From Sphaerolaimus hirsutus (Eukaryota > Nematoda > Chromadorea > Monhysterida > Sphaerolaimidae): DNA of 64,000 nucleotides. Within the stretch, counting starts at the first letter, position 1, and every line of letters begins with the position of its first letter. Where the stretch lies: NCBI GenBank assembly GCA_964036195.1, contig OZ038451.1:1178001-1242000 (forward strand), read 5' to 3'. Below are positions 1 to 62,200 of the stretch, in pieces. Position numbers and translations under genes: made by a program. The notes under the pieces were generated by a model, which was given only the letters and a program-made list of their open reading frames with translations, did no database searches and was not told the origin of the DNA.

Positions 1-231
1 GGAACCACGCGTGCAGGGTTTAAAGTAACCGGAGTATATCTGGAGCGCTTTTGAGCAATTTTACCCTAATTTTCACCAAAATTCCCTAATTTTCATACTT
101 CTTATAGATTTTCACCTTCAAAATAACTAGGTCATGTGTTTTATTGCCTATTTTCAACATGCCAGGTATAATTCAACGTGTTCCGGGTCAACATGCGGGA
201 TGGGCTTACATGCGGAATAGTGCACTGCCCA
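1..231. other. unassigned repeat-derived sequence
   Basis: No gene is seen. The first 120 bases resemble the right-hand interior of the 8-bp-duplication elements at 3154-3664 and 21471-21965 (phrases such as gagcaattttaccctaattttcac recur there in variant form), so this is probably a decayed repeat fragment. Confidence 0.4.
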
Positions 232-547
232 TTGCGTTAACCGCAAAATGGCAATCTTCCATACCGTACTCTTTACCAACAAGCTGTACCGTTTAAATAC
301 CACCCTAATTTCGACCCCTCAATATTATCAGGGGTGCTTGCCCCAACTCACTCGAATTGTCACAATCCTGTGGGGGTCGGCTGCGTAAGCCCTGAGCAGT
401 TTATGCACCCTTTCCTCTACTATTCCCACCCGCTCAATTTGCTTTTCCGCCACAAGATATACTGGTTGCTGTTCGCTGAAAAAGTTATTGTTGTAGTTTT
501 GTTTTCAGAGTCTGGATTCCCATCAACGATAATTCAACTAGACAATG
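232..547. repeat. dispersed repeat, unoccupied copy
   Basis: This segment is repeated in inverted orientation at 2183-2680. The two copies run collinearly from the gcgttaaccgc end through to the ataattcaactaga end with scattered differences. The copy here reads continuously through CTG at 392-394, the position where the other copy carries a 184-bp terminal-inverted-repeat element, so it represents the empty insertion site. Confidence 0.8.
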
Positions 548-2182: not shown

Positions 2183-2680
2183 TCTAGTTGAATTATCGCT
2201 GATGGGAATCCCGACTCTGAAAACAAAACTACAACAATTACTTTTTTCAGCGAACAGCAACCAGTATTTCTGGTGGCGGAAAAGCAAATTGAGCGCGTGG
2301 GAATAGTAGAGGAAAGAGTGCATAAATTACTCAGGTGGCAGTCCCAAGCCCTGTAAAGTGTAATGTAAAGTGTCAAATGTAAAGTCAAATGCAAAGTAAA
2401 CTGTCATGTAAGGTTCAGTAATAAAATCTTTTCTTTTTTGTTTTAATTGACAGTTTACTTTGCATTTGACTTTACATTTGACACTTTACTTTACACTTTA
2501 CAGGGCTTGGGACTGCCCCCAGGGCTTACGCAGCCGACCCCCACAGGATTGTGACAATTCTAGTGAGTTGGGGCAAGCACACCTGATAATATTGAAGGGT
2601 CGAAATTAGGGTGCTAAACGGTACAGCTTGTTGGTAAAGAGTACGGTATGGAAGATTGCCATTTTGCGGTTAACGCAATG
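2183..2680. repeat. dispersed repeat, occupied copy
   Basis: Inverted copy of 232-547, interrupted by the element at 2336-2519. Removing that element and one copy of the CAG duplication restores collinearity with the empty copy. Confidence 0.8.
2336..2519 (+). mobile_element. CWG-targeting TIR element (intron-forming family 1), intergenic copy
   Basis: It starts GTGGCAGTCCCAAGCCCTG and ends with the inverse, ...CAGGGCTTGGGACTGCCCC, with long TIRs built from gtaaagtgtcaaatg words. It is flanked by CAG at 2333-2335 and 2520-2522, a 3-bp target duplication. Read on this strand the boundaries are CAG|GTGG...CCCCAG, a ready-made GT-AG pair, although no gene is seen here. The empty site is preserved at 392-394. 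Confidence 0.9.
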
Positions 2681-9019: not shown

Positions 9020-9390
9020 ATATTATACTAGTTGACAAGGCCACCAAGGACTGTAAAATGTCTAATGTCATGCAAAGTGTCTAAAGTCATAGGAAATGCC
9101 CTGCAAAATGGCAACTCGGTTTTTACAGGGTCTGGGACTGCCCCCTGGTTCTTATCCCAATTCAAAGCTTGCTCACCAGCCCACCAACAACGTGCAAATG
9201 CAAAAAGTGTTGAATATGCCGCAATGAAGTGGTAGTGTCGAAAAAAATACATACTGCCGTAAAACATAAATGTACAGATATTTATAAGGCGACGTACAAG
9301 AACTTGTGGTGTTACTGGTGAGCGAGCTCTGAATTGGGATGGGAACCAGCAGACATCTGGTGTTCTTGTCAACTAGTGTATGTAGGGACT
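9020..9390. repeat. 'ctagttgacaagg' family copy carrying a decayed family 1 element
   Basis: Ends tactagttgacaaggccacc and ggtgttcttgtcaactagtg are inverted. Inside, about 9050-9160 ends with acagggtctgggactgcccc, the right terminus of family 1; its left terminus is deleted. Confidence 0.55.
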
Positions 9391-10330: not shown

Positions 10331-10338
10331 GTGCGAAT

Positions 10339-11092: not shown

Positions 11093-11100
11093 GTGCGAAT

Positions 11101-12339: not shown

Positions 12340-12625
12340 CCCCCACACACTAGTTGACAACCGAAATTTCTATAGCAGATAAATGTTTTAAACACATTTC
12401 AGTTTACCTGGATGTTGTGTTCTTAACTACTATTTATGGCGATCAAAAATGGGGGCTATCCCAGACCCTGTAAAACGTGGAGTGTCAAACGTACATTTTC
12501 CAGGGCACTTTACATGACTTTAGACACTTTGCATGACATTTGACATTTCACAGGGTCAGGCAGTGCCCCCTGGTGAACTCAAATGCGTTTAACTCGATTA
12601 TTTAGTTGCCCGAATTCCGGCTGTC
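12340..12625. repeat. 'ccccacacactagttgac' family copy with a decayed family 1 element inside
   Basis: Outer words ccccacacactagttgacaa and gctgtcaactagttgg are inverted. The inner segment 12459-12573 has GGGGCTATCCCAGACCCTG and CAGGGTCAGGCAGTGCCCC ends. Confidence 0.55.
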
Positions 12626-15063: not shown

Positions 15064-15255
15064 GGGGCAGTCCCAAGCCCTGTAAAGTGTAAAGTAAAGT
15101 GTCAAATGTAAAGTCAAATGCAAAGTAAACTGTCAATCAAAACAAAAAAGAAAAGATTTTATTACTGAACTTTGCATGACAATTGACACTTTACTTTGCA
15201 TTTGACTTTACATTTGACACTTTACTTTACACTTTACAGGGCTTGGGACTGCCAC
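15064..15255 (-). mobile_element. CWG-targeting TIR element, family 1, upstream of SNRPE
   Basis: Ends GGGGCAGTCCCAAGCCCTG and CAGGGCTTGGGACTGCCAC. The exact 3-bp duplication CAG is at 15061-15063 and 15256-15258. Orientation relative to CAG is opposite to 2336-2519, so on neither strand does it give CAG|GT...CAG. Confidence 0.9.
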
Positions 15256-16389: not shown

Positions 16390-17520
16390 GGGAATCACTT
16401 GGCACACACGCTAGTTGAATACCGCACTTAAAACGGATAAATATATTCAGAGTTTACCACGATTAATCATTCTTGAGTGTCAACTGTCATGCAAAATGTC
16501 ACACAAATTCGTCAGAGGTCAAAACTTCAGGAATAAAATCTTTTGAATTTTCATTGGCACTTTGTATGACATTTGAGGATTGACATGACACTTGACAGGG
16601 TGCGGGACTGCTAACTGAACCCGCAGTATTAATACACTCAAAAAATACCATAGCAATTCGGACATTCTTAAAAAAGCGTGTAGATCCCCACTAGCGTTCC
16701 AAAAATATCGAATATTTATTTTTTTAAATATAATGGCCCCACACACGCTAATTGACATCGACACTAAATGTCAACAGGGGGCAGTCCCAAGCCCTGTAAA
16801 GTGTAAAGTAAAGTGTCAAATGTAAAGTAAAGTGTAAAGTAAAGTGTCAATCAAAACAAAAAAAAAAAATTTTATTACTGAAATTTGCATGACAATTGAC
16901 AGTTTACTTTGCATTTGACTTTACATTTGACACTTTACTTTGCATTTGACTTTACATTTGATACTTTACTTTACACTTTACAGGGCTTGGGATTGCCACC
17001 TGGTTCCGTTCCCAATTCAAAGCTTGCGTTTGAACGGCGCAGGACCGGTGCACAAGTAAACCCGATGCACAAGTAACAATGTCCGGTACCAATGTAGACC
17101 CGGTACTTAGGTACGGCCCCCATACTTGAGCACTGGGTCTTGCAATGGGCATTGCAGGTGTTCATTATGGGGGGTTGGGTTACCCCCCAAACGCTCCAGC
17201 TATCTACATATGTATCTAGCGATTTTTCTCCCGTTTTTTTCCTTCTAAAGCTTGAAAAACCCCATAATTTTGAACCCCTTCAACCCCCACCTCCAAATAC
17301 AACAACTATACACATGATTGATGGAATGGTGCCATTTGAGCGCGCCAAAGTACGCCACACCATGGCGCCGTTATACTACTTTTGCTACTTGTGCACCGGG
17401 TTTACTTGTGCACCGACCCACGCCCGTTTGAACGTCGTTCGTCCACTCGTCAGCAAGCTTTGTATCGGGATCGGTACCAGTTGATATTTGGTGTCGATGT
17501 CAACTAGCGTGTGTGGGCCC
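16390..17520. repeat. 'acacacgctagttgac' family copies
   Basis: Inverted outer words (cacacacgctagttgaatacc; gatgtcaactagcgtgtgtggg). It contains the family 1 element at 16778-16999 and, at about 17170-17320, a C-rich block of another element. Confidence 0.5.
16778..16999 (-). mobile_element. CWG-targeting TIR element, family 1
   Basis: Ends GGGGCAGTCCCAAGCCCTG and CAGGGCTTGGGATTGCCAC, flanked by CAG (16775-16777) and CTG (17000-17002), a duplication with one difference. It carries long TIRs of gtaaagtgtcaaatgtaaag words. Confidence 0.8.
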
Positions 17521-34800: not shown

Positions 34801-37800
34801 GCTGAAACTTTGTATAGGTATATAAAGTTGTAAGACCCCCTTACTCCCCAACAATGGGGGGAGGTGCGGCGACTGACTACAGGGTGGGTCGCCCTATATG
34901 CAACAATTTTTTGTGGCGTTTTTGGTGTCCCAAGCAAGTTCACCACCCACTCGATTAGCTATACTTTGAAGGCTATATCTCCAGCTGTGAGGGCGGTAGA
35001 AAGCTGAGATTTGGGGGATGTCTTGCCAACAACCCCCCTCACAATACACCAGTGGGGCAGCTGCCGACGACCCACTAAAGCATGGGTCACTGCATATAAA
35101 GTTGATAATTTCTTTAAGAACAGCCAAAGTGTCCCAAACAAGTTTGCCACCCAACCACATTATAAAAAAATGTTGTGAGAACATACCTGATATAAAATTG
35201 AATCAGATTTAAACCCTAGTTCTGCTCATTAAAATTTATTCAGTAGGGCACCCACCCTGTCCCATAAACAGCAGACTGAAAATTTCACTTAAACCAATTT
35301 TTTGTATCACACTTAAAAAGTTGGTTTACAAAGTTCACTAGGTGAGGGTCTAAGGTTCAAAGTTATGTAAACAACATAACCTCTAAAATGCTTCCATAAG
35401 GAAATTTATTTGGGGTGAATGAAAAAGTGAAAATTTTGTCAAATTTTGTTCCTGAAATGACATCATTTTGACATCATAGAATTCACCCCAAGTAAATTTC
35501 CTTATGGAGGCATTTTAGAGGTTGTGTTGTTTACATAACTTTGAACCTTAGACCATTCTCTAGTGAACTTTGTAAACCAACTTTGTAAGTGTGAAACAAA
35601 AAAAGGGTTTAAAGTGAAATTTTAATTCTACCATTTATGAGACAGGGTGGGTGCCCTACTGAAACAATTTTTTTGCGCTGAAATAGTGTTCCAACCTGAT
35701 TCAGATTTTTATTAGGTATGTTGTTGCAACATTTTTTTAATGCAGTTGGGTGATGAACTTGTTTTGGGACACTTGGGCTGTTTTTAGAAAATGGTCAACT
35801 TTATATGCGGAGACCCATGCTTTAGTGGGTCGTTGGCAGCCACCTCACTGGTGTATCGTGAGGGGGGTTGTTGGCAAGACATCCCCCAAATTTCAGCTTT
35901 ATACCGCCATCACAGCTGGAGATATGGCTCTCGTAGTGTAACCAATCAAGTGGGTGGTGAACTTGTTTGGGACACCAAAAACACAAAAAAAATTTGTTGC
36001 ATATAGGGCGACCCACCGTGTAGTGAGTCGCCGCACCTCCACCATTGTTGGGGAGTAGAGGGGTGTTACAACTTTATATATACAAAGTTACAGCTTTATA
36101 GCACCCCCATGGACGGAGATATTGCATTCAAAGTGAAATAAAAAAATGGGTGGTGAACTTGTCCGGGAAGGTGTTTACATAGTGATGGCACCCGGGCACA
36201 CTGCTTACCACTTACTTACCACTTACAACTTTACGTATCACTTAGCACTTTCTGTTACCCATCCACTTGTGGAATTGGCCCCAGCTCTTCCGAAGAAAGT
36301 TCTTATACGGTGGAATCTAGACTGAGCACTCATGAGCATGAAATACTATCAATTGGTGCAGAAAATACTCGGGCTAATGTTTGCCAAAAATCTAGTCCAG
36401 CTAATTTGGACAAAAATGGTCAAAATTTGATGGAGCCGTTGAACTTGGAGCCTATTTCAGGTTTTTATTTCTGTTGTTTTTGGGTTTCAGGGACATTGAT
36501 CTGTAACATCGTGGATTCATAAAACTTACAGTGGGAATTTGAAACTGCCACCCATTTTTTGAATAATTGTTTTAAAATAAAACTTGAGTTTCCACACTCA
36601 TTTTTCATCCATTTTTTCCACTCGAGATACATTTTAAACAATTGATAAAACTTCTTTAAATTGGCACCTATTACAAAAAGCGCATTGTTCTCGGGCTGTG
36701 GGTCGCTTTTGAGGGGGGTGCACTGATACGCACATCTGCCCGATACGCACATTTGCCCATTTTTTCACTTGACACCTTTTCAAGTGATTTTCAGATATGA
36801 GTTAGGTGAAAAAAGTTGCGCAATGACATTAGTGAACTGTTTTCACTCCACTCATATCTGAAAATCACTTGAAAAAGTGTCAAGTGAAAAAAAACGGAAA
36901 TGTGCTTATCGGGCAGATGTGCGTATCAGGCCTGCCCCGCTTTTGAGGGGGGTATTTCGAGGGGGTTATTATTTCGTCAGAAATTTCCATTAACTTTCAT
37001 GTATCCTACTAAAGATGGGCTTTTCATACCCAAAACTGGTGTTGCCCGCATGGGCAAGTACTGACGGCGGGCGCGCGTGCACGCGAGTGTCGCCCCAGTC
37101 GCCCGCGGCACTGCGCGCCACTGGCGCGCAGTGCAGCGGGTTGCTGCGGCGGCACCCGCACAGCGCATGCGCCAGCCGACATTTATAAGGGCCGCGTTTC
37201 GCGGTCATTTCAGTTGTGTTCCCTCGCAGCTCATTTCCCTCGCCCCACCCGCTCAAGAAATGAATACACATTTGAACTTGTGAAGCCAGTGTCGCGAGGC
37301 GACGTTTTGCCCCTAAATAATCAATTCCACAATATAAATGTGTTTCACTCCTCCTCGGTTGACAGCGCCAGGGTTGACATCACCTCAGTCAAAGACCCGT
37401 GGCTGTTTTTCAGTGAAATCGGCACTTCAGTAAATTTTCTGTGGGACTGGTGTAAGTTTGCCACTGCTCAGGCACCCAGTGCCCACAACATGGTGACCAC
37501 ACTGGCTTGAATCCCCTCAAGCCCAAGCGAACCCGAGAGCGAAACATAGCCTGCGGCAGCAATACAGCACCGCAGGAGTCCCGCGCAAAGTAAATTCCGC
37601 CCAGAACGAAGGGCAACTAGGCGCCATACGAGCGCAGAGAAAACGTCAAAATGACAACGAATCCCCCCACAGGCCCACTAGAGGCCACAGCATCGCACCC
37701 AGTGCTACAAGCACCCGTGGAATATTCAGAGCAAGAGCTCACCCAAAAAGTGTCCGAATGGACAGCATCCCGCAAAAGGGGAGTGTTAATTAATGCAATC

Positions 37801-40800
37801 GAATCCGTGAATTACTGGCGAAAATCAAATTGGCCAAAAGGCACAATAGCCAGCAAAGACAGTAACTCCACTTTGGGCCGCCGGTTGATAAACCTGGCAG
37901 ACACGTATTTCAAAAGCACACAAAAAACCACAATCACGATTGAAAACCCGGAGCGCCATGACAGTGGCAGCAGCGGGGAAGAAAGTGATAGCGGTAACAT
38001 CACCGCAGCAAACGAACCCCTACTGCGATCAACCACGCAACCGCGCAACTCCGCGTCCCCGACACCGCTTGCAAAAATGGAAGCGCAAACGTTGGACTTG
38101 GCCGCAATGGCCTCCATGTTCAACCAGCGATTTGATGAACAAAACAAGCGCATCGAGCAACTAACACAGCTCATAGCCAACAACTCCCTTGGAAATTCAC
38201 CCCGAAACACAGTGCCACAATCTGACGACGCCTGGCGATGGCCAAAAGAAGACCGACTCGCAACATTAACTCAGGGCCCCCTACTAAACCAAATCATAGA
38301 ATACATGGAGCGGTACGTCATTGCGCCAGAAGATGGCCTGCAACCCCTAGGCACTATACGGGCCCCAAAAGACAAAATCAGCATTGGACACGTCGTATCC
38401 ACGGCAAATAAACAGATCAAATTTGATGGAAATGAAAAAAGCCAAACTGGCCCATTCCGCTTCTGGCTCCATATGATAACACAGCAAGCCGTGGGCATTC
38501 CAGAAAGCCAGCAGCAACTGTTTTGGATGAACATTTTTATGCAGTGTCTGACGGGAGACGCACAGAACAAGTATCTGGCGGTGCGCATAAACAAACGCCA
38601 TGACATCCTCTACGTACTCAACAGCCTAGTAGAGGCATACAAAGCTGACCACACAGTCCACTCGGTGGCAGACTGGTACAATTTGAAACCCGACCCCAGT
38701 GAGTCCGCGTCCTCATTTTACACGCGACTTTGCACAAATTTTTTCCACGTCAGTGAAACCATGTCGGACCATGAACGCCAGAGAATGATTGGAGACAAAT
38801 TTTTCACCGAAGCCCCCAAACTGGCCCCAGTGAATTGCTGGTACATGTGGCGGGAGCGCTGGCAAGACGGCGCTTGCACCATCAACCGAGCCATCGCAAA
38901 AATTGATGCCGCCCGGAAAGAAGCCAAACGCGCTAAAACACAGCGCCGAGAAGAACAAAGAAGCCAACGCACATGCCCACGGTATAACACAAGCTGGCAA
39001 TCCGAGCCAAAAATGCCAAAAGACACTGCCTTTGACCCTGACAACCATAAAGGACCATGGTGCACTTTCTACCTGCATCCAAAACCCATGCCCCACAGCC
39101 CCAGCAAGTGTTACATAAACCCAGACTCTACAGCATACCAAGCTGACAGAGCAAACAACATCAAACAATCCCTCACTAGACAGGGAAAATCAGAACAAGA
39201 GGCCAAAAACAGCATGAAGCAAAAGTGTGCCCAGATGGGCATCCCTTTCACTGAAACACCACCCAGTAGGTACACACAAGAACAGTATGAAATGGACAAT
39301 GACTTGTGGGATAACAGCGAAGACCCAGAAGACGAGGGTAACCCAGACGATTGGGTTCGCACAATTGCAAGCACAAAAATCGACACATGTGCACACACAA
39401 TGGATTCGCCCAACCCAATGGCGACCATCACCTTCTGTGGTGTACCCATCATGGGCCACATAGACAGTGGTTGTAACATTGGACTGTTCATTGAGGACTC
39501 CACATTGGAGCGCGCATGGGCGAAAGCCAACATGAACCCCGACAAGGAAAGAAAAAAGTTCAGACCCTATGTGGGCAGCCACATCCATACGCCTGGAAAT
39601 ATCATCAAAGGAGAATGGCTAAGACTATATGACATGGAAGTGGTGCACAGAACCCCAGATGGGGCACAACGAACAGACACACTGCCAGCCGTCGTAAAGT
39701 TAATGGAGTTCTTTCCCCCAGGAGACCCACTCCTAATTGGGCGGGCAGCGATATGGGGCCCCCTCCAAATAGTCCAAACAGCACACCAGGAACTAAAACG
39801 ATTGTCAAAAGAGTATGAACAAGAAGCGGAAGTGCTGAGAACACGCGACAAGACAGGCACAGACTGCCACATTCCCACGCAGACAAAAGTAGTGAAACTG
39901 GGCGCTGTGACCCACACACTAGCATTCGAAGAGCAAGAAACCCCCACAGCTCAAGGATTGAAAGAGCATCCTCTTTGGGACAGGGACCGCAAGTTCTGCC
40001 AACCAATCAACCCCCCATCCTGTGAGCCCAGCACCAAGGGTGCAAACATGGAATGGGTCAGCTCAGTTTGCCACAGCCAGGCTCAAAACGCAACTGCACA
40101 CTGCACCTCCCCCACTACTCAGAACCACCCTAGGCTTGAAAGCATAGTTGCCCGGGTGAACATTCAGGCACCAGTGCCTTTGAATGCCATGCAGCCGAAA
40201 CATGACCCAGGTGTGCATTACGTTTCCCCAGTTTTGTCCTCACCAGAGCAAAATCCAACCGTTCACAAGCGAGCTCATGCAGATGTGAACAAGCGCGGCA
40301 TACGCTGCGACTCCATAAACGCCAACCACACAGTGGCAGCCACCCACCATACAAACACGTTGAATAAGCTCACAGAAATGATCTTTTGGAATCAAAATTT
40401 CGTGGCCACATGCACAGACATCCCTAGAAGAATTCCGGCACGACAACCCCTTCTGCCCACACCCACACACATGGCCCCGGACCCATGTGGGGACAGCAAC
40501 GAGCTCACAACGCTGCGTGGCTCCGTCAACCGGTTATCATTGGCCATTGAGCGATTGTCACTGCACCCAGAAGCCCATCACTCAAATTCAGTCCCTCCCT
40601 GCACGAATTCAGTGAAAGCGCCTTCAACGAAACCCACAAATTGTTGCCACACAGTCCACCCAATGTGTAACACAAACCCAAGCATATTTATGCCCTATTT
40701 ACCACATAACCCCCCACCCGCTGTCACCGCCGCATCACAGCCGCATCTCGTGTGCCTGCTTGCTGATGCCTTTGGGCCAAAGTACTGGCATGGAAAGCGG

Positions 40801-43274
40801 CAACCAATCATGATGACCAGCCTGAAGAAACTGACAAAGGAGTAAGCGACATGGCAATTTTGTAGGAATGGAAATTTTGTTGAAAAAGTTTTTTGTTTTG
40901 TCAGATTGGTGCATTTTGGGTACATTTCTATCGCGTGCAGTGTTTTTACATTTTTCCATGAATATGGGTATCATTTCTCTTGCAATTTTAACATTTATTT
41001 ATTTATGTGAAACAGGTCAAATTATTTATTTGTAAATGGGTTTTTGTTTGCCCTTGGGTTTTATATTTTTACAATTAACTAATTCCCACCCATTTGTGAA
41101 AAGTTTTGCATCACTAACAGGTTTTATTTTATGGCATCTGGATGGTACTTTGTATTTTATTTTATTTTTGTTTTTTTTTCGGAACCCCTGCCCCGGGCTT
41201 GAGGGGGGGTGTTGCCCGCATGGGCAAGTACTGACAGCGGGCGCGCGTGCACGCGAGTGTCGCCCCAGTCGCCCGCGGCACTGCGCGCCACTGGCGCGCA
41301 GTGCAGCGGGTTGCTGCGGCGGCACCCGCACAGCGCATGCGCCAGCCGACATTTATAAGGGCCGCGTTTCGCGGTCATTTCAGTTGTGTTCCCTCGCAGC
41401 TCATTTCCCTCGCCCCACCCGCTCAAGAAATGAATACACATTTGAACTTGTGAAGCCAGTGTCGCGAGGCGACGTTTTGCCCCTAAATAATCAATTCCAC
41501 AATATAAATGTGTTTCACTCCTCCTCGGTTGACAGCGCCAGGGTTGACATCACCTCAGTCAAAGACCCGTGGCTGTTTTTCAGTGAAATCGGCACTTCAG
41601 TAAATTTTCTGTGGGACGGGTGTAAGTTTGCCACTGCTCAGGCACCCGTGCCCACAACACTGGTAATAAACGTGAAAGAACAGGATATATTTATTAACAT
41701 CAACATATATGCTACACAAACTATTGTAATGTAATGTACTATTGTAACTTCGATGCATATTGGCAGCGCTAAGTACCAGAGTTGTTAAAAGTACCGAACT
41801 TTTTTAAAAGCCTACGTAAACGTTAAGTATTTATTTTTTACTCACCCCCTGAGTACAGAAAACGTAAAGTAAATTTTTTTACTTTTACTCATGAGTAAAC
41901 GTGAGTAAACGTACGTTTCCCCCCAGAAAACGTAAACGTGAGTACTTTTGAGAAATGTCACCAAAATTGTCACTCAAAATCTTTAATTTTCATAACTTTT
42001 TGCCTATTTTATGCAATTGTTGACAATATATTTGGTTTTATACCCATTTTCGACTAGTTTTCCATATTTTTAGCATATTTTCTCTCTTTTTTCCCTTCTA
42101 TGCCTTTAAAAATCTATATAAAAGATGATCCGAAATACGTTTTCTGTACTTGAGTACTTTCAAAAAGTATTCGTAAAAGCGAGTACCGGAACTTTTTTCG
42201 CAGGAAACGTAAACGTATTTGTATTCGAGTAAAAAGTCGAGTAAATGTAAATAGGTTTTAACAACTATGCTAAGTACATCATTTACCTTGCATACATGAT
42301 GTACCTTATTTCGGGGGGGGGGTATTTCGAGGGGGTCTATTTTCCTCAGCTCAAATGACCTCAAATTCAAGGCGTGGGGCGCCCAACACCGGGACGGTGC
42401 CTTTCCATCACTACATTTGACACCCCAGTATCAGTTTTCACTGCAAATATTTTTTTTAAACTTCCAGATGTTTCAGATTCTGAAAGTGAAAGATCGTCAT
42501 TGGATCCACAGACATCTACTAAACAAGTTGAATTGCTGTCACGCGGTGTTTCTGATTTTAAAGTGACAAAGACAAAAACAAGGAAATATAGAAGAGACCA
42601 TAGGGTCAGATTGGTCATTGCTGATGACCCGTGCTATAACAGAGTCAAATGCAAGAGTTGTCAACCAGAAAAAGTGTTTACACATTGGCCTTTGCTGGTT
42701 GGTTTGTTTTCTTTTCTATTGAAAAACTTTGCTTATACAGTAGCTACATTGTGGAATTTTCTTTTTTATTTACCGTATTACCTCGAATTATCCCCCCTTG
42801 AATTACCCCCCCCCTCAAAATGGGCCGAGGAAATAATAACCCCCCCCTCGAAATACCCCCCCCCTTCGGAATGATGTACATCATGTACATAATAAATACA
42901 TCATGTACGCAATGTACATGATGTATATTACTGTTAATTTGCATTGCAGCTACACATAGACTAGTTTGTGTAGCTATCTACGTTTTTATGTCCAAATATA
43001 TCCTGTTTGGACACATTTATTACCTATTTTGGGTACGCAAATGCCTACTGTTTACTACGATCCTTACGAAAATTTCTGACGAAATAATAAACCCCCCCTC
43101 GAATTAACCCCCCCTCAAATTTTGCTGGCGAAATAATGAACCCCATGGGGGTATTTCGAGGTAATACGGTACTTTGTAAATACTTCAATGCAGCTGGCCC
43201 ATGTATTGCAAGCACACCCCGAGCAGTATGCCAAGTACATTCTGAAGGCAGCAGACATTAAAAATTACAAGTGA
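31846..43274 (+). CDS. unrecognised five-exon gene whose first two introns are CWG elements
   Basis: I do not recognise this protein (about 225 residues). Exons: 31846-31912 (MESVSNEDSSIAEWILLDQF), 34174-34321 (or from 34183), 36285-36460, 42468-42673, 43194-43274 (LAHVLQAHPEQYAKYILKAA ... TGA). All four junctions keep phase (1, 2, 1, 0). Visible: a Ser/Asp/Glu-rich middle (VSDSESERSSLDPQTS), a basic stretch (KVTKTKTRKYRRDHRVR), a CxxC pair in NRVKCKSCQPEK and a helical C terminus. Intron 2 has perfect CAG|GT...CAG element boundaries. Intron 1 is an element inserted at CTG; it can be spliced at an AG inside the element (34172-34173, giving ..QSVPPGDD..) or at the TG edge (..QSGDD..), both in frame. 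Exon 4 may instead end at 42697. An AATAAA lies at 43459-43464. Nuclear regulator is a guess only. Confidence 0.65.
31998..33676. mobile_element. long palindromic (foldback) element, TA duplication
   Basis: Arms begin AACAGCGGACACGCCAGG and run inward as inverted copies for about 800 bases each to a centre near 32950 (aatgatgtcatcaatgacatcatt). TA at 31996-31997 and 33677-33678. The left arm is interrupted at 32160-32389. A further copy begins at 63875. Confidence 0.88.
32160..32389. mobile_element. 'ccccacacactgg..agtgtgtgtggg' element nested in the palindrome's left arm
   Basis: The right arm of the palindrome is continuous (acattcaggtgggtcgcc) where the left arm is split by this element, which identifies it as a later insertion. 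Inverted ends ccccacacact / agtgtgtgtgggg-like. Confidence 0.75.
33703..34090. mobile_element. short TIR element of the 'cctcgaaatac' family
   Basis: Ends atactgtttcctcgaaatac and gtatttcgaggaaatacggtat, with C-rich/G-rich inner borders. Confidence 0.75.
34322..36281 (+). mobile_element. CWG-targeting TIR element, family 2, forming intron 2 of the five-exon gene
   Basis: Left end GTGCCAATTTCCCAAGTGCAC, right end CACTTGTGGAATTGGCCC, flanked by CAG at 34319-34321 and 36282-36284. Boundaries read CCCAG|GTGCC...CCCAG|CTCTT, a canonical GT-AG intron in which the acceptor AG is the duplicated target. The palindrome 34720-36175 is nested inside; without it the element is about 0.5 kb. Confidence 0.82.
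34720..36175. mobile_element. long palindromic (foldback) element, TA duplication
   Basis: Arms begin AACACCTTCCCGGACAAG and are inverted copies of about 700 bases each around a centre near 35450. TA at 34718-34719 and 36176-36177. A second copy is 56591-58936. Short frames in the arms are not coding. Confidence 0.9.
36724..36928. mobile_element. small palindromic element, 'gatacgcacatctgccc' ends
   Basis: Left tgatacgcacatctgccc and right gggcagatgtgcgtatca are exact inverses. The inner arms contain cacttttca / gatatgagt blocks shared with 61331-61699. Confidence 0.8.
37040..37490 (+). repeat. 5' LTR
   Basis: 451 bases, TG...CA. Contains a TATA-like ttataagg at about 37182. Nearly identical to the 3' LTR. 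Confidence 0.95.
37491..37508 (+). promoter_or_regulatory. putative primer-binding site
   Basis: TGGTGACCACACTGGCTT directly follows the 5' LTR and begins TGG, as expected for pairing with a tRNA 3' CCA end. The tRNA is not identified. Confidence 0.5.
37651..40845 (+). CDS. Gag-like polyprotein with retropepsin-like motif
   Basis: A 1064-residue frame, the only long one in the element. The N-terminal third is charged and Ser/Thr-rich with a predicted coiled segment (about residues 150-175). The middle (about 260-420) has the Trp/Phe-rich, helical character of Gag capsids. A Cys-His cluster C471-x4-H-x5-H-x4-C487 could be a zinc knuckle variant. The motif HIDSGCNIGLFI with D605-S-G, followed by LLIGR about 100 residues on, resembles a retropepsin-type aspartic protease. 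The C-terminal third is Pro/Thr/His-rich and unrecognised. There is no polymerase or integrase. The start is the first ATG after the leader. Confidence 0.75.
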   Translation: MTTNPPTGPLEATASHPVLQAPVEYSEQELTQKVSEWTASRKRGVLINAIESVNYWRKSNWPKGTIASKDSNSTLGRRLINLADTYFKSTQKTTITIENPERHDSGSSGEESDSGNITAANEPLLRSTTQPRNSASPTPLAKMEAQTLDLAAMASMFNQRFDEQNKRIEQLTQLIANNSLGNSPRNTVPQSDDAWRWPKEDRLATLTQGPLLNQIIEYMERYVIAPEDGLQPLGTIRAPKDKISIGHVVSTANKQIKFDGNEKSQTGPFRFWLHMITQQAVGIPESQQQLFWMNIFMQCLTGDAQNKYLAVRINKRHDILYVLNSLVEAYKADHTVHSVADWYNLKPDPSESASSFYTRLCTNFFHVSETMSDHERQRMIGDKFFTEAPKLAPVNCWYMWRERWQDGACTINRAIAKIDAARKEAKRAKTQRREEQRSQRTCPRYNTSWQSEPKMPKDTAFDPDNHKGPWCTFYLHPKPMPHSPSKCYINPDSTAYQADRANNIKQSLTRQGKSEQEAKNSMKQKCAQMGIPFTETPPSRYTQEQYEMDNDLWDNSEDPEDEGNPDDWVRTIASTKIDTCAHTMDSPNPMATITFCGVPIMGHIDSGCNIGLFIEDSTLERAWAKANMNPDKERKKFRPYVGSHIHTPGNIIKGEWLRLYDMEVVHRTPDGAQRTDTLPAVVKLMEFFPPGDPLLIGRAAIWGPLQIVQTAHQELKRLSKEYEQEAEVLRTRDKTGTDCHIPTQTKVVKLGAVTHTLAFEEQETPTAQGLKEHPLWDRDRKFCQPINPPSCEPSTKGANMEWVSSVCHSQAQNATAHCTSPTTQNHPRLESIVARVNIQAPVPLNAMQPKHDPGVHYVSPVLSSPEQNPTVHKRAHADVNKRGIRCDSINANHTVAATHHTNTLNKLTEMIFWNQNFVATCTDIPRRIPARQPLLPTPTHMAPDPCGDSNELTTLRGSVNRLSLAIERLSLHPEAHHSNSVPPCTNSVKAPSTKPTNCCHTVHPMCNTNPSIFMPYLPHNPPPAVTAASQPHLVCLLADAFGPKYWHGKRQPIMMTSLKKLTKE
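41201..41209 (+). promoter_or_regulatory. polypurine tract
   Basis: gaggggggg lies immediately before the 3' LTR, the expected site for plus-strand DNA priming. Confidence 0.75.
41210..41659 (+). repeat. 3' LTR
   Basis: 450 bases; differs from the 5' LTR by G/A near the start, T/G near the end and one missing base. Confidence 0.95.
41777..42269. mobile_element. hAT-type element, CAGAGTTGTTAAAA ends
   Basis: Exact 8-bp duplication CTAAGTAC at 41769-41776 and 42270-42277. Interior of acgtaaacg / gagtaaa words. Same family at 44756-45547, 55682-56195 and 62165. Confidence 0.92.
42771..43171. mobile_element. short TIR element of the 'cctcgaatta' family, intron 4 of the five-exon gene
   Basis: Ends taccgtattacctcgaatta and atttcgaggtaatacggt, with C-rich interior blocks. 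Confidence 0.8.
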
Positions 43275-43458
43275 TCAAGAATTTGCACATCAATGTGATA
43301 TCAATCAACTTCTGAGACTTTTAATTGAGTGAAACTTCTGACAGTGGATGAAATTATGTGCTTTTGTCCCTGAGGTGACTAAGGTCCAGTAACACACACA
43401 CTGCAAAATGGAAGAAGAATTTGTCAAATGATTGCATGTAAAATGTTCAAAAGCTCCC

Positions 43459-43464
43459 AATAAA
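43459..43464 (+). promoter_or_regulatory. candidate polyadenylation signal
   Basis: AATAAA 185 bases after the stop of the five-exon gene. Confidence 0.4.
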
Positions 43465-43544
43465 ATTTTACTTTGCATTTCTGGCTATTTTACATTCTAC
43501 ATGACATTTTTCTGCCCCTTTCACTTCACAAAGCTATAAATATG

Positions 43545-43749
43545 TACCGTATTTCCTCGAATTACCCCCCGGGGGTTTATTTTTTCAGAGTGAAAATTTT
43601 GAGAGAAAAACGTGAAAAATTCAACAAAAACCACCATTTATAAGTTTTACAGAGTTTTTGAACGTCTGTTATGCATTTCCCAGACACCAAATTCATAGTG
43701 CCCATTTTGTGGGGGGTATTTCGAGGGGGGATATACGAGGAAATACGGC
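43545..43749. mobile_element. short TIR element of the 'cctcgaatta' family
   Basis: Ends accgtatttcctcgaatta and atacgaggaaatacgg. Confidence 0.75.
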
Positions 43750-44197
43750 GTACATAAATTCAGATTCATAATGGTGCTATATTTGTTATGACAGCATTGG
43801 TACCCTCATATTCTTTAGAGAAACTGTGATTTTTATGGGTCGAGGTTTTAGCCTGTTGTCACCCATATTACTCGTTTCTATTGCAATCTAGCTATTTCCA
43901 CACCTGTAAAATATTATTTTAGTTAATGAATGTACCTGGCAACAAGAAAACAAATAAAAACAAAAATGACTTTCTCGGGTAGCTATTACGTGGATAATGC
44001 AATATTAATGCGAACCTGAGCAACATGTTTGGATTAGGATCCCTATAGGATTGTTCATTGTTCACCACAAAACTCATATGGTAAAAATACTTTAAAAAGT
44101 TAAAAATCATTGTTCCTTTCACACTCATTTACTCCAATTTTTGTGATGGTTGATGCTGCTTATCTTGATGATATGCTTACCTCTGTTTGATCTAACG
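43750..44197. other. gene-free stretch
   Basis: AT-rich intergenic DNA between two short TIR elements. No feature is seen. Confidence 0.4.
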
Positions 44198-44627
44198 TAC
44201 CGTATTACCTCGAATTATCCCCCCCTTGAATTAATCCCCCCCATCGAAATACCCACCCTAAATTTCGGCTGAGGAAATAATAACCCCCCCCTCGAAATAC
44301 CCCCCCCCCCCTAAAATTGAGTGTAACGTGAACATACGTGACAAATACCGCAGTTTGTGATGTGTACTACGCAGAACACACGTTAAAACTGATGATTAAG
44401 TGACGTTAGGGAAGGGTTTTTGTGTATATACAGTAATATATGCCTATAAACACATATAAATCTATGTGATTGTTCGATTTTTCAACGTCTGCGTATGGGG
44501 AATTTTCTGAAAATTTCTGGCGAAATAATAGACCCCCCCTCGAAAAAACCCCCCCTCGAATTATCCCCCCTCAAATTTTGCTGGCGAAATAATAAACCCC
44601 CTGGGGGTATTTCGAGGTAATACGGTA
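44198..44627. mobile_element. short TIR element of the 'cctcgaatta' family
   Basis: Ends taccgtattacctcgaatta and tttcgaggtaatacggta. The interior resembles 59824-60232. Confidence 0.78.
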
Positions 44628-46279: not shown

Positions 46280-47289
46280 CTATTCGCGTTTCCTGCCACA
46301 GCAACAACAACAGTAACAGCAGACAGTGCGAATGGCTGTCCTGGCCTTGCTGTTGCCAGCGGTGTGGAACAGGAGCACCGCGGCGGCACACATCAGATTG
46401 GCCACGGCGCCGCAGCTGACCACCGTGGCGCTGGTGGAGTAGACGCCAGCAGCGCCGCACAGCCAGCTGGCCACGCCCAGCACGGTGACCACCAGCCCGC
46501 CCAGCACGTTCACCTTGGCCGACGTCTCCATGCCTGCCATCGCCGCCGGTCTGTGCGCCTGCGCCACGTGCCGCACGCTCGGGTGCACCCAGGTCATGGG
46601 GGCTGCCTCGGACAGAATCACAGCTGGCACGGCCATCAGCAGACCTGGCCCGACGGTGCACAGTGCAGCTGGCACCGAGCCAAAGTTGACCCAGCACGTG
46701 AAATCGGAGCCATACTCATCAAACAGAAACAGTGCACACATGCTCACGAATAGGAGGGGCGAAATGACTATGATCAGAAATGTATACAGTTTGCTGAATG
46801 TGTTCCTCACGAGCACAAATGTGATCACCATATAATTGTGCAGTGCTTCCACGAAAAGTGACACAAAAAGTGTGAGGAATAAGTAGTGCAATGCGAGTGC
46901 AAAGAATGCACATGTGCTTAGATCAAATTTTGGTGGCCCAGCATTCTCATCAAAAGGATCACACATGGCACTGAAACCACCAACTGTTGGCTCTCTGCCA
47001 AACAACAATATTATGCATGCAAGAAGTAATGAAAACTCTTGTATGGAATGAAATATCCTGACAATGCCAAAGTCACGTGCAATGATAAATATTATCAGAA
47101 TTATAATACAAGCAATTAGGAGGACTATAACAGAGAGGTTATAGAAAGCATTTGCAACAAATTTGCTGGCTTTTGTGAGTGCTGACTGATTTGGCTGGCA
47201 ACGACCCAGCCAAGTTTCGCAGTTTTTGCCAGTTGCGAGTCCACTTGGACAGATGCAGCTGTACCCTCCCAGCTGATCCACACATGTGC
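46280..47289 (-). CDS. receptor terminal exon: EGF end plus seven-helix domain
   Basis: After the acceptor ctacag the exon completes an EGF domain (GTCVDQLGGYSCICPSGLAT, then GKNCE). A linker of about 25 residues follows, then seven hydrophobic segments and a short Cys-rich tail (CYCCCCCGRKRE) before TAG at 46280-46282. The GC content rises sharply from helix 5 onward. Similarity to adhesion GPCRs rests on the helix 3 pattern, the extracellular Cys in CAFFAL and CWV. No long cytoplasmic tail, so signalling partners cannot be inferred. Confidence 0.85.
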
Positions 47290-50200
47290 CTGTAGTGTGA
47301 TAATAGGAATGAAAATTTACACAGCAAAAATTAGGTTCATGATGTGTGTGGAAGCGGGCTAGATGTGCGTGAAGCGCCCTCTGTGAAGACACTTCCACAC
47401 ACTTCACCACACATCACTAAGTTTTTCGAGATTGTTTGTGAAGTGTCTTCCACACACAACACACATCATCACGGCGACCGAAGTTCGTGAAGTGCACTTC
47501 ACGAACTATTACAGCATACTTTGCATGGTTCGTGAAGCGCCGGGAAGTGCCAACCAGCGCTTCACAGCGTCGGGAAGTGTCGACATGAAGGCACCTCACG
47601 ACGCTTCACGACACATCACATACCCATTTTTTGCGGTGTTCGCTCTCTCAGAAATGTTGGTTCAATTGTGCCATTTTTCATGTCACAAACCATGATATCA
47701 CTTCATAAGTGAATATAATAAGAACACACCTGAGTGCTGACAAGTAACAAAGTCACAATCATTGGTCACATCTCGCTCACAGGTCTTTCCACCAAATGGA
47801 GGCTTGCACTTGCATTCAAATGTCGTGGTGTGGTCCTGTGAACGATCCTTTTACTTACCTATGAATCATCCATCCAGTTCGATTGTGCATGTAACATACA
47901 CAATGTGTAGACAAACATTTAGTTCACCACACATATCATATGTTACACAAGTGCATATTCAGATTATAATAGAATGGGTAACTAACGATGCAATATCCAG
48001 CATTGACGCAGGGTGCCAGTGCACACCAGTCGATTTTCTCTGTGCACCTGTGTCCAGTGTAGCCGGGTGCACATTGACACTGTGCGTCGGCCCTGGGGGC
48101 AGTCCCAAGCCCTGTAAAGTGTAAAGTAAAGTGTCAAATGTAAAGTCAAATGCAAAGTAAAGTGTCAATCAAAACAAAAAAGAAAAGATTTTATTACTGA
48201 ACTTTGCATGACAATTGACAGTTTACTTTGCATTTGACTTTACATTTGACACTTTACTTTGCATTTGACTTTACATTTAACACTTTACTTTACACTTTAC
48301 AGGGCTAGGGACTGGCACCTGTGCGCACTCGGCTCGCAGCTGCCTCCGTTGTGGCACAGCATCAGGCAGAATGCTTGCGCTAGGTTGCCTGGACCAGCGA
48401 CACGAGACACCCATTGCATTGAAATATCGAACCCTTGCACTGTGCGGCCGCCTTGATCAGTACCAACGTGAGGCTGATCCCACACTGCAGTGGGACACAT
48501 TCAAGTTTTCAATTACATTTCAACATTTCAATATTTATCATTTAATGCAAAAAGCTCGCCAAGTGCTAATAATGCGTACCGTATTTCCTCGAAATACCCC
48601 CAGGGGGTTTATTTTTTCAGAGTGAGAATTTTGAGGGGGGTATTTCGAGGGGGGGGTAATTCGAGGGGGATTTATCATTTTGCCAGAAATTTTTTGCACA
48701 CCCAGTACTAATAACGTACGCAGAGGTAGAAAGGTGCCACAAAAACCACCATGTATAGGAGTCTATAGCCATATATAAGTATGTAGATGATGAAAACCAT
48801 GTTCTAACGTAACACAATCATTGTTTTTAACGTGTCCCGCAGCTTTTGTCATCTACGTTACTTATACACTGAATTTGGGGGGGGGGGTATTTCGAGGTTG
48901 AGATCATGTCATTATGCTATAAATATATATTTATGTAGAACATCTGCAACATTAATTTTAAGCACCATTCAACCACCAGGCGCCAATGGATGGCATCAGA
49001 GAAAAAAGCCTCAAGCACAAATAAAAAATATTTAGGGGAAAATATTCATTTACAATTACAAGAGTAATTTTTAAAATATACAATAGTTTGAGAATGCCTC
49101 ACAGGTGTTCCAATTCTCATATTGCACAGGCCGGCCATCAATCCACTTCCAATCTTGGTCTTTTTCCCTGAACAAACCTAGCCACAGTTGATACCTGGCT
49201 CCAGTATCTTGCACAAAACCTGGGCAGAGTGAAGTAACACTGATTTTGAAGTGTAGTAAAATCAACACAGATAAACACTGTTTTTCATCTACCTAACAAA
49301 TTGGCGTCATTTACTGCCACTCGCGCACTTCCTGTATCTTCAGCATGAAATGAAATGGACACTTCACCAAAAAAATTAAACTGGTGGCAAATATAAATGG
49401 AAAATTCACAAAATAACATTTAAAAAATCGCTCAAGCAAGCTATCAGGCTGTCACTTAGTGTGAGGGTGCCTCCAAGTATCTACTATATATACCCAAGGG
49501 GGCACCCCCTCAGGCCACCCTTGCTGCTGAAAATATTTTTTAGTGTTTTCTCTGGCAAATATAAATGGAAAATCCATACAAATTTTTGTTCAGGCCAGAA
49601 TTTGATTTATTTATAAAATTGGTTGGGGATGGTTAAGGCCACTGATTTTTTTTGACATATGAGATGGTAACTTCCTGCAACTTTTCCGCCCCCTCACAAC
49701 CCACACAATCCCCACACCAAAATTTTGCTGAAGATCAAACCTGAAATCTTTTTTTGAACAAAACAGAGTGGAACTAATGTGTCTTACACACCCCCAGGCT
49801 TATAACACAGAACATGGGGGCCAGGACTAAGGTTCAAACGATATTTATATCATATCGAATATCGAATATCGGATATCGACCATTTTTATATATCGAATAT
49901 CGAATATCGATATCGATAATTTTGAAAAAATATCGAATATCGAATATCGAATATCGATATCGAAAAGTCATATCGTTTGAACCCTAGCCAGGACTGGCTT
50001 CCTAAGTGTCATGAGCTACATGTGGCTAGCCCTGCACCACATTGTTGCATGAAGTCTGCATTTGTGGCTATCAGTGAAAATATGACTGTTCAAAGACAGC
50101 ATTTATGTAAAAGCATGACCAGCCTCTGCTGCATCTGATGCAAATCATTAAATGCTAGTGCCCATTGAATTCAAGCAACAATTATCTGTTAAAGATATAC

Positions 50201-53200: not shown

Positions 53201-56200
53201 CAAGATGTGCTGAAAAATGTAAACAGTCATGCAAAATGTCAAATTAAGGTTTACACATTTTGTATTTTTGGTGACATTTTACTTTACTTACAGGTTTCAC
53301 TTGACTCAATCATCTTTTGACCCATAAGATTTGTAAATAAGACCTTACAAGTGACCAGGTTATGCTTTTGGCAGCTTTGGGGTCAGCCCTCAACTCTGTA
53401 GAGTGAGCTGGTGGGTGAAAGTATCTTCAATCAGTCAATGTCAATCACAATTCCAATCATTGTCAGAATGATCAGGTGCCATTTTGTGACTTAGGTTGTA
53501 TTTTGTTACTTGTTATTAAATTTGGACCCTTTGTTATCTGTTGATATGCACTTGTGCACATTTCTTATTTTGTTCAGTTAAACACAGCACAGTATTCCTC
53601 AAATCCAATGAAAAAACTCAAAAAACTTCTCTGTGTTTCTGTGTTCTCCAATAAAAAACTCATTTTAGTTTTGAGTTTTTCAAAATTTTTTGAGTTTCAG
53701 TGTTTCTATGTAAAACAACAACACAGAAATGCAATGAGTTCCTGTGTTCAATTTCTGTGTTTTTTTTCTTCCATCGTTGACTATTACACACTCTATCATA
53801 TCGTTGTGCACACTGAAAATTGTGGTAACTGGATGGTGCGGTAAGTCTTATAAGTCCGCAGTATGGCACTGTAAATTTTGCCATCCTGCGCTGAGCTGAA
53901 CCTGAAATCATGACTTTTCGTCAACAAACCGGTGTCTTGAACATTGCTCTCGCATCTGTCGCCAGTGAAATCGGTGGCGCAGTCGCACCGCGCCCTGTCG
54001 TTGTCGTTGTCCACTGCGCACGTGCCCCCGTTCATGCACATCACCGAGCAGACCGCGTGGAAGCGGGTATTGCAATCTATATCTACAAGCAACCACTCTG
54101 GGGCAGTCACAGACCCTGTAAAAGACCGTGTAAAATACCCTGCACAGTGTCATGTGTTATGTAAAAGACCCTATAAAGTGTCAAATGTCATGTAAAAGAC
54201 CATGTAATGTGTCATGTGTATCCAAACTTTATTTAATCGTATCCAAATGTCATGTTTTTGTATCAAAATCTTATGCACAAAAGTAAGATTTGGATACAAA
54301 AATGTAAGATTTAAATCAGTACAATACGATTTCGATACACATAACACTTTACAGGGTGTTTTACATGACATTTGACACTTTACAGGGTCTTTTACATATG
54401 ACACGTGACATTTTACAGGGTCTTTTGCAGGGTCTGGGACTGGCACCTGGCCAGAAGTTAAGCAAGGCGCAGTTTTCGGCGGTACCTCCGGCCGGCTCGA
54501 CCAATCCTTCATCGGTCATCCACATTTCCTTTCTCTCTTCACTGAATGTGTAATTTACGTCGAGCGATCGCCACGTGCCCTCGGTCAACTTGTCGTTGGC
54601 ACTGACCCAGTAAGTGATGTCCCCAGACACGGAGCGCACGAATGCTGCGATGTGCGCTTGCTCACAGTCACCGCAAAAAATAGGTGTGGGGATGCGCGGT
54701 GAAGCGTCGGGAAGTGCCTGCACGCTGACGCTTCCCGACGCTTCACCAAGCACGCTAGCGCTTCCACACGCATCACGAAAATGAAGACACTTCACGCTTT
54801 TTAACGAAGAGCTGGTGTGCAAATGTACAGGGTGCGGCAATTTAGACCTGCGCTGGTCGGATGAACGTCAAATTTTACATAACATTTATGCTGCGATTAC
54901 AGCTCGGGCGTAAAATTGACCGGGCGTAAAATTGATTTTGGGCGTAAAATTAATTACAGATGAAGGAATAAAGATACGACATTGTTATTTCAGTCAAAGA
55001 AAGCTTAGATGCAGATGTTTCTTGTGTCCAAAGCTCATGAGTTTGTTTTAATCGTACTGGGAGTTATTAATTTTAGCACAATTTTTCCAATTATGCGCTG
55101 TAACTGGCGTAAAATTAGGGTGTAAAATAAAAAAAATTTGCACCAAAATTCATAACTTCTAGTACAATTAAAATAAACCGATGAGCTTTGGACACAAGCA
55201 ACATCTGCATGTGCCCTTTCTTTGGCTGAAATTACAACGCCATATCTTTATCCATTCACCTGTAATTAATTTTATGCCCAAAAATCAATTTTACGCCCGA
55301 GCTGTAATCGCAGCATAACAACTAAATAGGAAAGAATCCCTGAAAATATGGCTGCCATAGCTCCACTCGTTCTCAAGTTATTCATGCAAATGCGTAGTTG
55401 TCACTTTACCACCACCCCGTGATAGGTTTCAAACGGGATCCACTTTCGAGACCCGGATCGGGATTGGGATTGTTTTTTCAGTTTTTTTCTCTCCTTTTTT
55501 GCAGCGGCATGCCAAAATGCGTTCGCGCGCGCCACTAATCCGCCTTACCGATAAGGAAATCGGCAGACGCTTCCGTAATTGGTTGTAAAGCAACAATTAT
55601 TGGTGTTTGCATCAATAACTTGAGAACGAGCAGCTATCGCAGCCATATTCTCAGGGATCCTTTCCTATTTAGTTGTTAATGCAGAGTTGTTAAAAGTACT
55701 GAACTTTTGTCAAAGTAAACAAAAACATAAAGTATTTGATTTTGGCTCAACTCTGAGTACAGACAACGTAAAGTATTTTTCTAATACTTTTACACTGCGT
55801 AAAACATGAGTAAAATACTTTTTTCAGAGAACTGAGTATTTTTCTCACAGAAAACGTAAAAATGAGTATTTTTCTCATCTAAAATGTTAAAGTGAGTTAT
55901 GTAGAATGTAAAAATCAGAAATTTTGTCAATTTTCACTCTAGAATACATCAAATATGTGTTTTGTTCTCCCGTTCACTAAATACTTCTTAGGAAAATGTC
56001 CTATTTTTGTCGCGTTCTGTCTGTCAAAATGTCATATTCTATGTCCTGTTTAAACACGTTTTCAGTACTCGCGTACTTTCAAAAAGTATGCGAGTAAGTG
56101 TGTACCGGTTTTTTTTTTGGAGGAAACGTAAACATATTTACGCAGTACTCGAGGATCCGTATTTATCGAGTAAATGTGAATACGTTTTAACAACTGAGCG

Positions 56201-59200: not shown

Positions 59201-62200
59201 TAATGTCCCAAAAAAATTTTATCAAATAATCATTATTTAAGTAGTTATTAATTTACCGTCAAAATTTTTTGATGACGTAAAATGTTTGACGTGAAATGTT
59301 GACGTAGAATGTGTAAATTTCGACGGTAAATTAATAACTACTTAAATAATGATTATTTGATAATATTTGTTTGGGACATTACACACAATTACTAGAACTA
59401 TCTAATTCTGAAATTTCAATGCTGTACCTTTGTCCATTTTGATGTAATCAATTTTACAATGTAATCATTTCACGTCAAACGCCGCTGAGCTGTAATTCCG
59501 GCTTTATGGTATCAACTTTCCATTTTCCAAAAACAACATTTTCTTCCTTTCCATTTGCTCATCCTATTTACTTTCACTTACCATTTGCATTTCGTGCATC
59601 AGTTAAATTGTACAATGTGATGAGTGAGCCTGCTGGGAAATTGGTGCATCTATTGGCTGCTTCAAAGTACGTGGCATTGTGAATGTTGGTAACCCTCAAG
59701 CAATCACTTCTTCCTGGCCACGTCAATGGGTACCATGTATTGTAGTCTCTTGCCTCTGAAATTATATGAAATTGATTGATTTGCATTGATATTGATTTGC
59801 CTGTACCGATATTGATTTGCATATACCGTATTAACTCGGATTAACCCCGCCCCTTGAATTGACCCCCCTCGAAATACCCCCACCCCCTAAAATTTGGCTG
59901 AGGAAATAATAACCCCCCTGGAAATTCCCCCTCTAAAATTGAATGTAAAGAGAACGTACATGACAAATACCACAGTTAGTGATCTGTACAATGCAGAACA
60001 CACGTTAAAACCGATGATTGAGTCACGTGAGGGAAGGGTTTATGTGTATATACAGTCATATATGACTATAAACACTTGTAAAATACATCTATGTGGGTAA
60101 TTGTTTGATTTTTATATGTCCGAGTATGGGGACTTTCCAAAAATTTCTGGTAAAATAATAGACCCCCTCGAATTATCCCCCCTCAAATTTTGCTGGCGAA
60201 ATAATAAACCCCCTCAGGGTATTTCGAGGTAAAGTTGATGGAGGTATCACCTTTATGACGTTTTCGCGTTTGGCCACATCACTGCATAAATTGTATTGAA
60301 ATTTGAATGAGTTTACCATGTAAGTACGCCGAATGTGCTGAAATCATTTATAAGTCACATAATTTAGTTTGTTCATGCCGTTTTGCATGCATTTGTGTGA
60401 TTCTAGTGCATGTTAGTCATTTGGATACTGCACTAAAAAAGTAACCATGATGTGTGCAAATTTCTTTGCGCAGCAGTAAAAATCTTTTTAAAGCGAAAAT
60501 TGTTGCGAATTGGGGAGAGTTGTATTTCCGAAGATTGGGGCGTCCGTTTGTGCAATGCACGCAGCGATAATCAGATGTTGCACGTGAAACGTGAATAACA
60601 AACCCCCCGGGCAGCTTTTGTTCTCGGATTCTCAGTCACCCTGTGCAAGAACAAATTCTAACTCTGACTTTTTGTAGGCTGATATCTACGCCAACTTTAA
60701 TATGGTACAATACAGAATGGGAATATTGAAATGATATTGGAAGCACGGTTGGCTTTATAAAAATTATTTGTATACATATTGTATAAAAATTGTATTTTAT
60801 TTTATTTTATCCCAAAAGTCGTTGATAGTCGTTATGTTTTTGTATGCAAAGCTTATGTTTTGTACCCAAATCTTATGTTTTTCTTCTCATGTTATTATTT
60901 TCTAAGCTAAACCTTAAACTTGTTACCAAAGATTGATCAACAAACCAGTATCGCATCTGTCGCCAGTGAACCCGACAGCACAATTGCACCGCGCCCTGTC
61001 GTTGTCGTTGTCCACGACGCACGTGCCCCCGTTAAAGCACATCACCGAGCAGACCACGTGGAAGCGGCTGTCGCAGCGCACATCCACCAGCTTGTTCCAC
61101 GGTAGATGGGGATAGTTGAGTACAGCGCAGTTTTCAGCCGTGCTCCCATTCGGCTCGTTGTAGCCATCGACAATCATCCACATGTCCGACTGTTCATCAA
61201 ATGTTTGAGTCACATCGGGTGACCGCCACGTGTTCTCATTCAAATTGTCAGTGGCGCTGATCCAGAAAACGATGTCCCCAGACACGGAGCGCACGAATGC
61301 TGCGATGTGCACATCTCCCTGGGGCATGCCTAATACGCACATCTGCCCGTTACGCACATTTGCCCGTTTTTTTCACTTGACACTTTTTCAAGTGATTTTC
61401 AGATATGAGTGAAGTGAAAAAAGGTTGCGCAACGACATTAGTGAACTTTTTTCACTTCACTCATATCTGAAAATCACTTGAAAAAGTGTCAAAAGAAAAA
61501 ACGGTCAAAAATAGCCATTTTTCACCATTTTTTTCACTTGATAATTTTTCAAGTGATGTTCAAATATGAGTGAAGTGAAAAAAGTTCACTTATGTCATTG
61601 CGCAACTTTTTTTCACATCACTCATATCTGAAAATCACCTGAAAAAGTGTCAAATGAAAAAAACGGGCAAATGTGCGTAACGGGCACATGTGCGTATTAG
61701 TGCACCCTCATCGCCCCATTGTTTTTCCTAGTTGATTTGACATAGGGTCCCATCAGTAGTGATGGAAAAGCGCCAGGAAAAGTGGCGACAGGCGCCGATG
61801 GCGCCATGGCGCCATTCAAAAATATGACGCCGGGCGCCAAAGGGCGTCACAGAAAATGGCGCCAGGCGCCAATGGCGCCATGGCGCCATCTGAAAAAATT
61901 GCGCCGATCGCCAAAGGGCGCCAGAAACAATGGCGCCAACAAAAAAATTCACTATTTCAGCCTGTGTATCACCATGGAAGCATTTACAGGAAAGCAACAT
62001 GCTGTACCATTTTTTGGTATCATCTTGGCGCCGTTTCCGGCGCCATCCAAAACAATGGCGCCGGGCGCCAAATTGGCGCCAGCGAAAATGGCGCCAAGCG
62101 CCAAGGACCAGCGCCATCGCGCCATTCCATCACTAGTCCCTAGGCATGTAAACCCTCTCTGCATCAGAGTTGTTAAAAGTACCAAACTTTTTTCAAAGTA

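Follow-up and report, generated by a model that had tools for sequence, protein, structure and literature searches.

Three copies of a short foldback transposable element in the stretch of DNA analysed here (the window, 64,000 nucleotides) appear to have turned into introns of the exons that received them. The reading we favour, with a probability of roughly 0.86, is that a non-autonomous foldback MITE of the NuwaI type, related to PIF/Harbinger, inserted into these exons and acts as an introner. The origin of new introns is an old question, and the copies concerned, E1, E4 and E5, provide a rare and readable example of a possible route, in which the target, its duplication, empty sites and the one-base TIR difference that supplies the GT are all displayed by the sequence. 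Since the one-base difference and the empty sites are visible, a direct test is possible of whether the GTG end is needed for an insertion into an exon to survive. If the NuwaI-like reading is true, it would connect introners with NuwaI, an already named group of PIF/Harbinger-like transposons. The coordinates of all copies, candidate introns and exons are collected in Table 1.

Table 1. Positions in the window of the elements, the candidate introns and the surrounding sequences (a slash marks a splice junction)
Feature	Position	Strand	Remarks
Empty copy of E1 locus	230..542	-	94% identical; apparent exon 352-475
E1 + CAG, probable third case	2335..2522	+	splits apparent exon (2251-2334, 2523-2562), sense orientation
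Element E1	2335-2519	+	185 bp
Element E6, degenerate relative	12452..12569	.	118 bp; GGGG at both ends; flanking triplets ATG, CTG
Element E2	15064..15255	-	192 bp; CTG flanks in GTG-first orientation; ends not splice-competent; no exon recognised around it
Element E3	16778..16999	-	222 bp; inside repeat; flanks now differ, CAG before and CTG after
Receptor 7-transmembrane part	46283..47320	-	Pfam 7tm_2, E = 1.9e-9
Exon downstream of E4	47990..48092	-	holds second half of split EGF, then beginning of following EGF; lower end approximate
E4 + acceptor-side CAG, candidate intron	48093..48318	-	226 nt; donor CAG/GTGCCA, acceptor CCCCCAG/G
Element E4, foldback TIR	48096-48318	-	223 bp
Duplicated CAG at E4	48093-48095 and 48319-48321	-	both flanks
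Exon upstream of E4	48319..48480	-	ends in first half of split EGF; exon-side CAG 48319-48321; upper boundary approximate
Exon downstream of E5	53946..54097	-	uninterrupted EGF; lower boundary approximate
E5 + acceptor CAG, second candidate intron	54098..54446	-	349 nt; donor CAG/GTGCCA, acceptor CCCCAG/A
Element E5, related subfamily	54101-54446	-	346 bp
Exon upstream of E5	54447..54666	-	C-type-lectin-like by eye; no Pfam lectin match
Uninterrupted duplicate of E5-split exon	60944..61318	-	64% aa identity; intron-less paralogous site

On the minus strand, E4 meets its two exons at ...GAGTGCGCACAG/GTGCCAGTCCCTAGCC ... CTTGGGACTGCCCCCAG/GGCCGACGCACAG.... Removal of 48093-48318 leaves CHNGGSCEPSAHR/ADAQCQCAPGYTGHRC in a single open frame that passes through CHNGGSCEPSAHRADAQCQCAPGYTGHRC into the following EGF, while retention of the element leads to a stop after 7 codons. 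The peptide joined at the exact acceptor (125 aa, two EGF repeats) matches Pfam EGF with E = 4.6e-10, and the best stretch within it, residues 42-69, is the domain split by the element. Judged by eye, ten residues lie between the third and the fourth cysteine of this domain, and the EGFs near 54.0 and 61.0 kb, which no element interrupts, have the same spacing. The window contains uninterrupted EGF repeats but no empty copy of the E4 locus. The initial annotation had described this intron as one element plus one duplicated CAG that splits a single EGF domain; its coordinates prove correct to the base, and the restored frame and the EGF match bear out the second point. It had also assigned the donor to the terminal GTG and the acceptor to the duplicated CAG, an assignment supported, as far as sequence can do so, by the exact boundaries, the restored frame, the E5 site with its uninterrupted duplicate and, likely, the E1 site with its 94%-identical empty copy.

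A second complete candidate intron, formed by E5, lies in the same receptor region. The ends of the element read CAG/GTGCCAGTCCC and CTGCCCCAG/AG, the right one having one C fewer than in the other copies if the CAG duplication is assumed to be complete. Here too exact excision would restore the reading frame, and with the element retained translation meets a stop after 28 codons. After exact excision the site is 2 aa shorter than the duplicate at 60944-61318. No Pfam lectin domain was detected at the E5 region under either of the two acceptors considered below; the neighbouring exons at about 51.1 and 49.2 kb, when joined, match Lectin_C at 2.6e-6. The stretches 60944-61318 and 53946-54666 contain duplicated lectin-like/EGF exons, belonging either to one gene with repeated modules or to a tandem pair.

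The introns could be derived from the elements and yet be spliced at an internal acceptor, TTTACAG/GG, located 18-19 nt before the intron end. We hold this to be improbable, although by eye its pyrimidine tract is the better one and in E5 its use is in frame, adding the six residues GSVTAP. At the E4 site, use of the internal acceptor puts the EGF out of frame and the resulting peptide matches no Pfam family, in a comparison that is uneven, the test peptide being shorter (94 vs 125 aa). The same 19-nt tail is shared by E1, in which the frame would presumably shift too. The predicted folds of E1, E4 and E5 all have the internal AG in a base-paired state. At the E5 site Pfam EGF does not separate the two acceptors (1.3e-4 for the exact one, 1.5e-4 for the internal one), and the internal acceptor makes the protein 4 aa longer than the duplicate instead of 2 aa shorter, a difference that is not decisive. 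In E5 the internal acceptor may be a minor alternative site.

E1 probably represents a third intron, in an exon that we call tentative because its peptide belongs to no recognised family: Pfam returned no family for the E1 copy and only Septin, at a non-significant E = 0.13, for the empty copy, and no significant relative was found in the PDB (best E = 1.2). Between the E1 locus and its empty copy 296 of 314 alignment columns are identical, and the CAG duplication and the exact ends of the element can be read directly from the comparison. The apparent exon, 124 nt in length, is split at a CAG, and excision would give the layout of the empty copy; if E1 is retained a stop follows after 7 codons.

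Six complete copies of the family were found in the window (E1 to E6, 118-346 bp). The counts of ends given below do not include two half copies that end at 9144 and 34179, and whose other ends were not recognised; weak partial matches to the family are found at 16476-16596 and elsewhere in the window. GGG is present at one end of every complete copy, and in five of the six the opposite end is GTG, the exception being E6. The TIRs of E2 agree at 59 of their first 60 bases, the lone difference being position 2, the T that makes the GT. As for the target triplets, CAG stands on both sides of E1, E4 and E5 and CTG on both sides of E2, with E3 and E6 as exceptions; an empty copy of the repeat that hosts E3 (6637-6719) reads CAACTGGTTCC, which gives CTG as the E3 target. 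In a non-systematic search no exon was recognised around E2 or E3. With at most one mismatch allowed, the right-end 11-mer GGGACTGCCCC is matched 11 times in the window, some of these matches not being ends of the elements, against 0.54 expected. A search of viral contigs, a collection that possibly excludes the genome of the window itself, gave no match to the exact end pattern. By blastn E4 is 97% identical to E2 over 174 bp and 95% identical to E3 over 223 bp, and such identity between copies is the only basis for the initial claim of an active or recently active family, which goes beyond the evidence. Position 4 of the element is C (GTGC) in E4 and E5, the firmest intron copies, and G (GTGG) in E1, E2 and E3, numbers too few for a test.

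E1, E4 and E5, the copies that could be assigned to exons, are all in sense orientation at a CAG, the sole arrangement that yields CAG/GT...AG. The chance of finding three of three in this splice-competent state is 1/64 if orientation and the W of the target are random, or 1/16 for E4 and E5 alone, so that the bias is suggestive, not strong. It nevertheless bears on the possibility that this copy of the receptor gene is decaying, with E4, E5 and E1 as ordinary insertions never spliced out. The density of repeats in the window would suit such a history, to which we give little credence: one arrangement in four is splice-competent and all three exon copies have it, E4 and E5 are flanked by exons that stay open and keep their EGF cysteines, with the 7tm_2 stretch following, and the two copies of the E1 exon, with a single frame open in both, differ silently in 4 codons and non-silently in 2. 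For the 7-transmembrane stretch itself there were no protein matches at E <= 0.001 among 7027 candidates. The gene content of the window, with EGF, C-type-lectin and 7tm_2 parts in the receptor and a JMJD6-like exon, points to a probable animal host, less probably to a choanoflagellate or another relative; in naming an animal genome outright the initial annotation went further than this evidence.

An introner is expected to show similarity up to both splice boundaries at different positions, as E4, E5 and E1 do, and to have a related site without the intron, which is found for E5 (60944-61318) and E1 (230-542), E4 having only the uninterrupted EGF repeats. That the elements landed in pre-existing introns and coincide with splice sites by accident is the least probable account, since, for all the repeats that lie outside exons in this repeat-dense window, nothing but the duplicated CAG separates E4 and E5 from their exons, no intron occupies the site in the duplicate of the E5 exon, and the element is missing from a 94%-identical copy of the E1 locus.

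Under the introner reading, insertion at a CAG would leave a CAG on both flanks of the element. The left CAG and the GTG of the element would constitute the donor (CAG/GTG), the right end, ...GCCC(C), and the second CAG would constitute the acceptor, and excision of the element together with one CAG, presumably performed in vivo by the spliceosome, would restore the reading frame. The long hairpin may aid splicing by bringing the donor and the acceptor close to each other and by burying the competing internal TTTACAG/GG. When the fold is predicted for each intron together with 30 nt on either side, donor and acceptor come to lie 4 (E1), 11 (E4) and 11 (E5) steps apart, against 188, 226 and 349 nt along the unfolded chain. 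Of the terminal AG, both bases are predicted to be free in E1 and, for the most part, in E5; in E4 pairing takes up the G and leaves the A open. Because the donor is partly buried in the same predicted folds, by pairing of the T in E4, of the G in E1 and of both bases in E5, the hairpin may hinder splicing as well as help it. Positions +4 to +6 of the donor, CCA in E4 and E5 and GCA in E1, are off the usual splice consensus. The GTG end could have arisen from the GGG terminus by one substitution and have been kept since insertions into exons then survive. We are evenly divided on a broader proposal. In it, the change from GGG to GTG in one TIR provides the donor, the CAG target provides the exonic context and the acceptor, and a near-perfect hairpin brings the splice sites together and conceals the competing AG; by these means a MITE lineage of NuwaI type would have turned into a self-sparing maker of introns that is now spreading them through an animal genome.

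Several systems invite comparison. Huff et al. reportedly described in 2016 MITE-like introners of Micromonas and Aureococcus, in which an element with TIRs and a TSD is said to give one splice site and the TSD the other; in the present family TSD, TIR and host are all different. Henriet et al. are said to have found in 2019 that the animal Fritillaria borealis has introns linked to mobile elements. When these element-linked introns are considered through the available text of a related tunicate paper (PMC13326754), the present candidates are set apart by their GT/AG boundaries.

A closer parallel to the proposed splicing is the type of introner that brings its own 5′ splice site and relies on the target for the 3′ one (Fig. 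2C legend, Gozashti et al. 2022, PMC9860276). According to the portions of that paper available to us, which also names copepods, mRNA length is unchanged in most families with the donor in the element and the acceptor from the target. The Chrysochromulina introners described there resemble the present copies in both respects, donor in the element with acceptor from the target and unchanged mRNA length. They differ in having a TSD of 4 bp against the 3-bp CWG found here and, in the same portions of PMC9860276, no evident counterpart of the long foldback TIRs, and the host here is presumably an animal.

NuwaI is a group of the PHIS (PIF/Harbinger-related) superfamily whose CWG TSD was established from paralogous empty sites, and whose TIRs usually begin with GGG and are reported to be 12-61 bp long (available text of PMC4482050). 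Its hosts are animals only according to the NuwaI section of that paper and mainly animals according to its abstract (PMC4482050). The present family is alike in its CWG target with a paralogous empty site (the CAG of E1 and the copy at 230-542) and in its probable animal host. GGG stands at one end of all six complete copies, in partial agreement with the NuwaI TIRs. It is unlike NuwaI in the GTG at one end of five of six copies, in foldback arms that exceed the 12-61 bp of NuwaI TIRs, and in the apparent creation of introns, of which the available text of PMC4482050 makes no mention for NuwaI. In autonomous NuwaI elements a DDE transposase is accompanied by a Myb/SANT ORF. No transposase was seen in Pfam scans of five ORFs of the window, and the copies, at 118-346 bp, are too short to encode one. 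Because no transposase was seen, we regard the family, on its sequence features, as NuwaI-like and do not assign it to NuwaI as a member. In the literature searched, with some introner work of 2025 falling outside the search, 'introner' and 'Harbinger' occur together only in a fungal intron study, whose available text has 'Harbinger' once. Three features appear to be new here, in a comparison that likewise leaves aside some 2025 introner work: the asymmetry of the TIRs at a single base, the use of CWG as target and the likeness to NuwaI.

A few other features of the window deserve mention. An ORF of 1074 aa (37621-40845, plus strand), without a match in Pfam, lies between direct repeats of 300 nt (37038-37337 and 41208-41507) listed as 100% identical, and 37038-41507 looks like a young LTR-type retroelement. 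JMJD6-like exons are spread along 23176-28112 (minus strand): 23176-23541 matches solved JMJD6 structures with E = 1.7e-31, and 26196-26705 and 27780-28112 are further segments that we take to resemble JMJD6, Pfam giving none for the former and Cupin_8 at 0.0074 for the latter. Dense simple and MITE-like repeats, of the families CCCGATCCCGAT, ATATCGATATCG and CCTCGAAATACCCCCC, occupy 5959-6088, 10337-11094 and 42808-44556.
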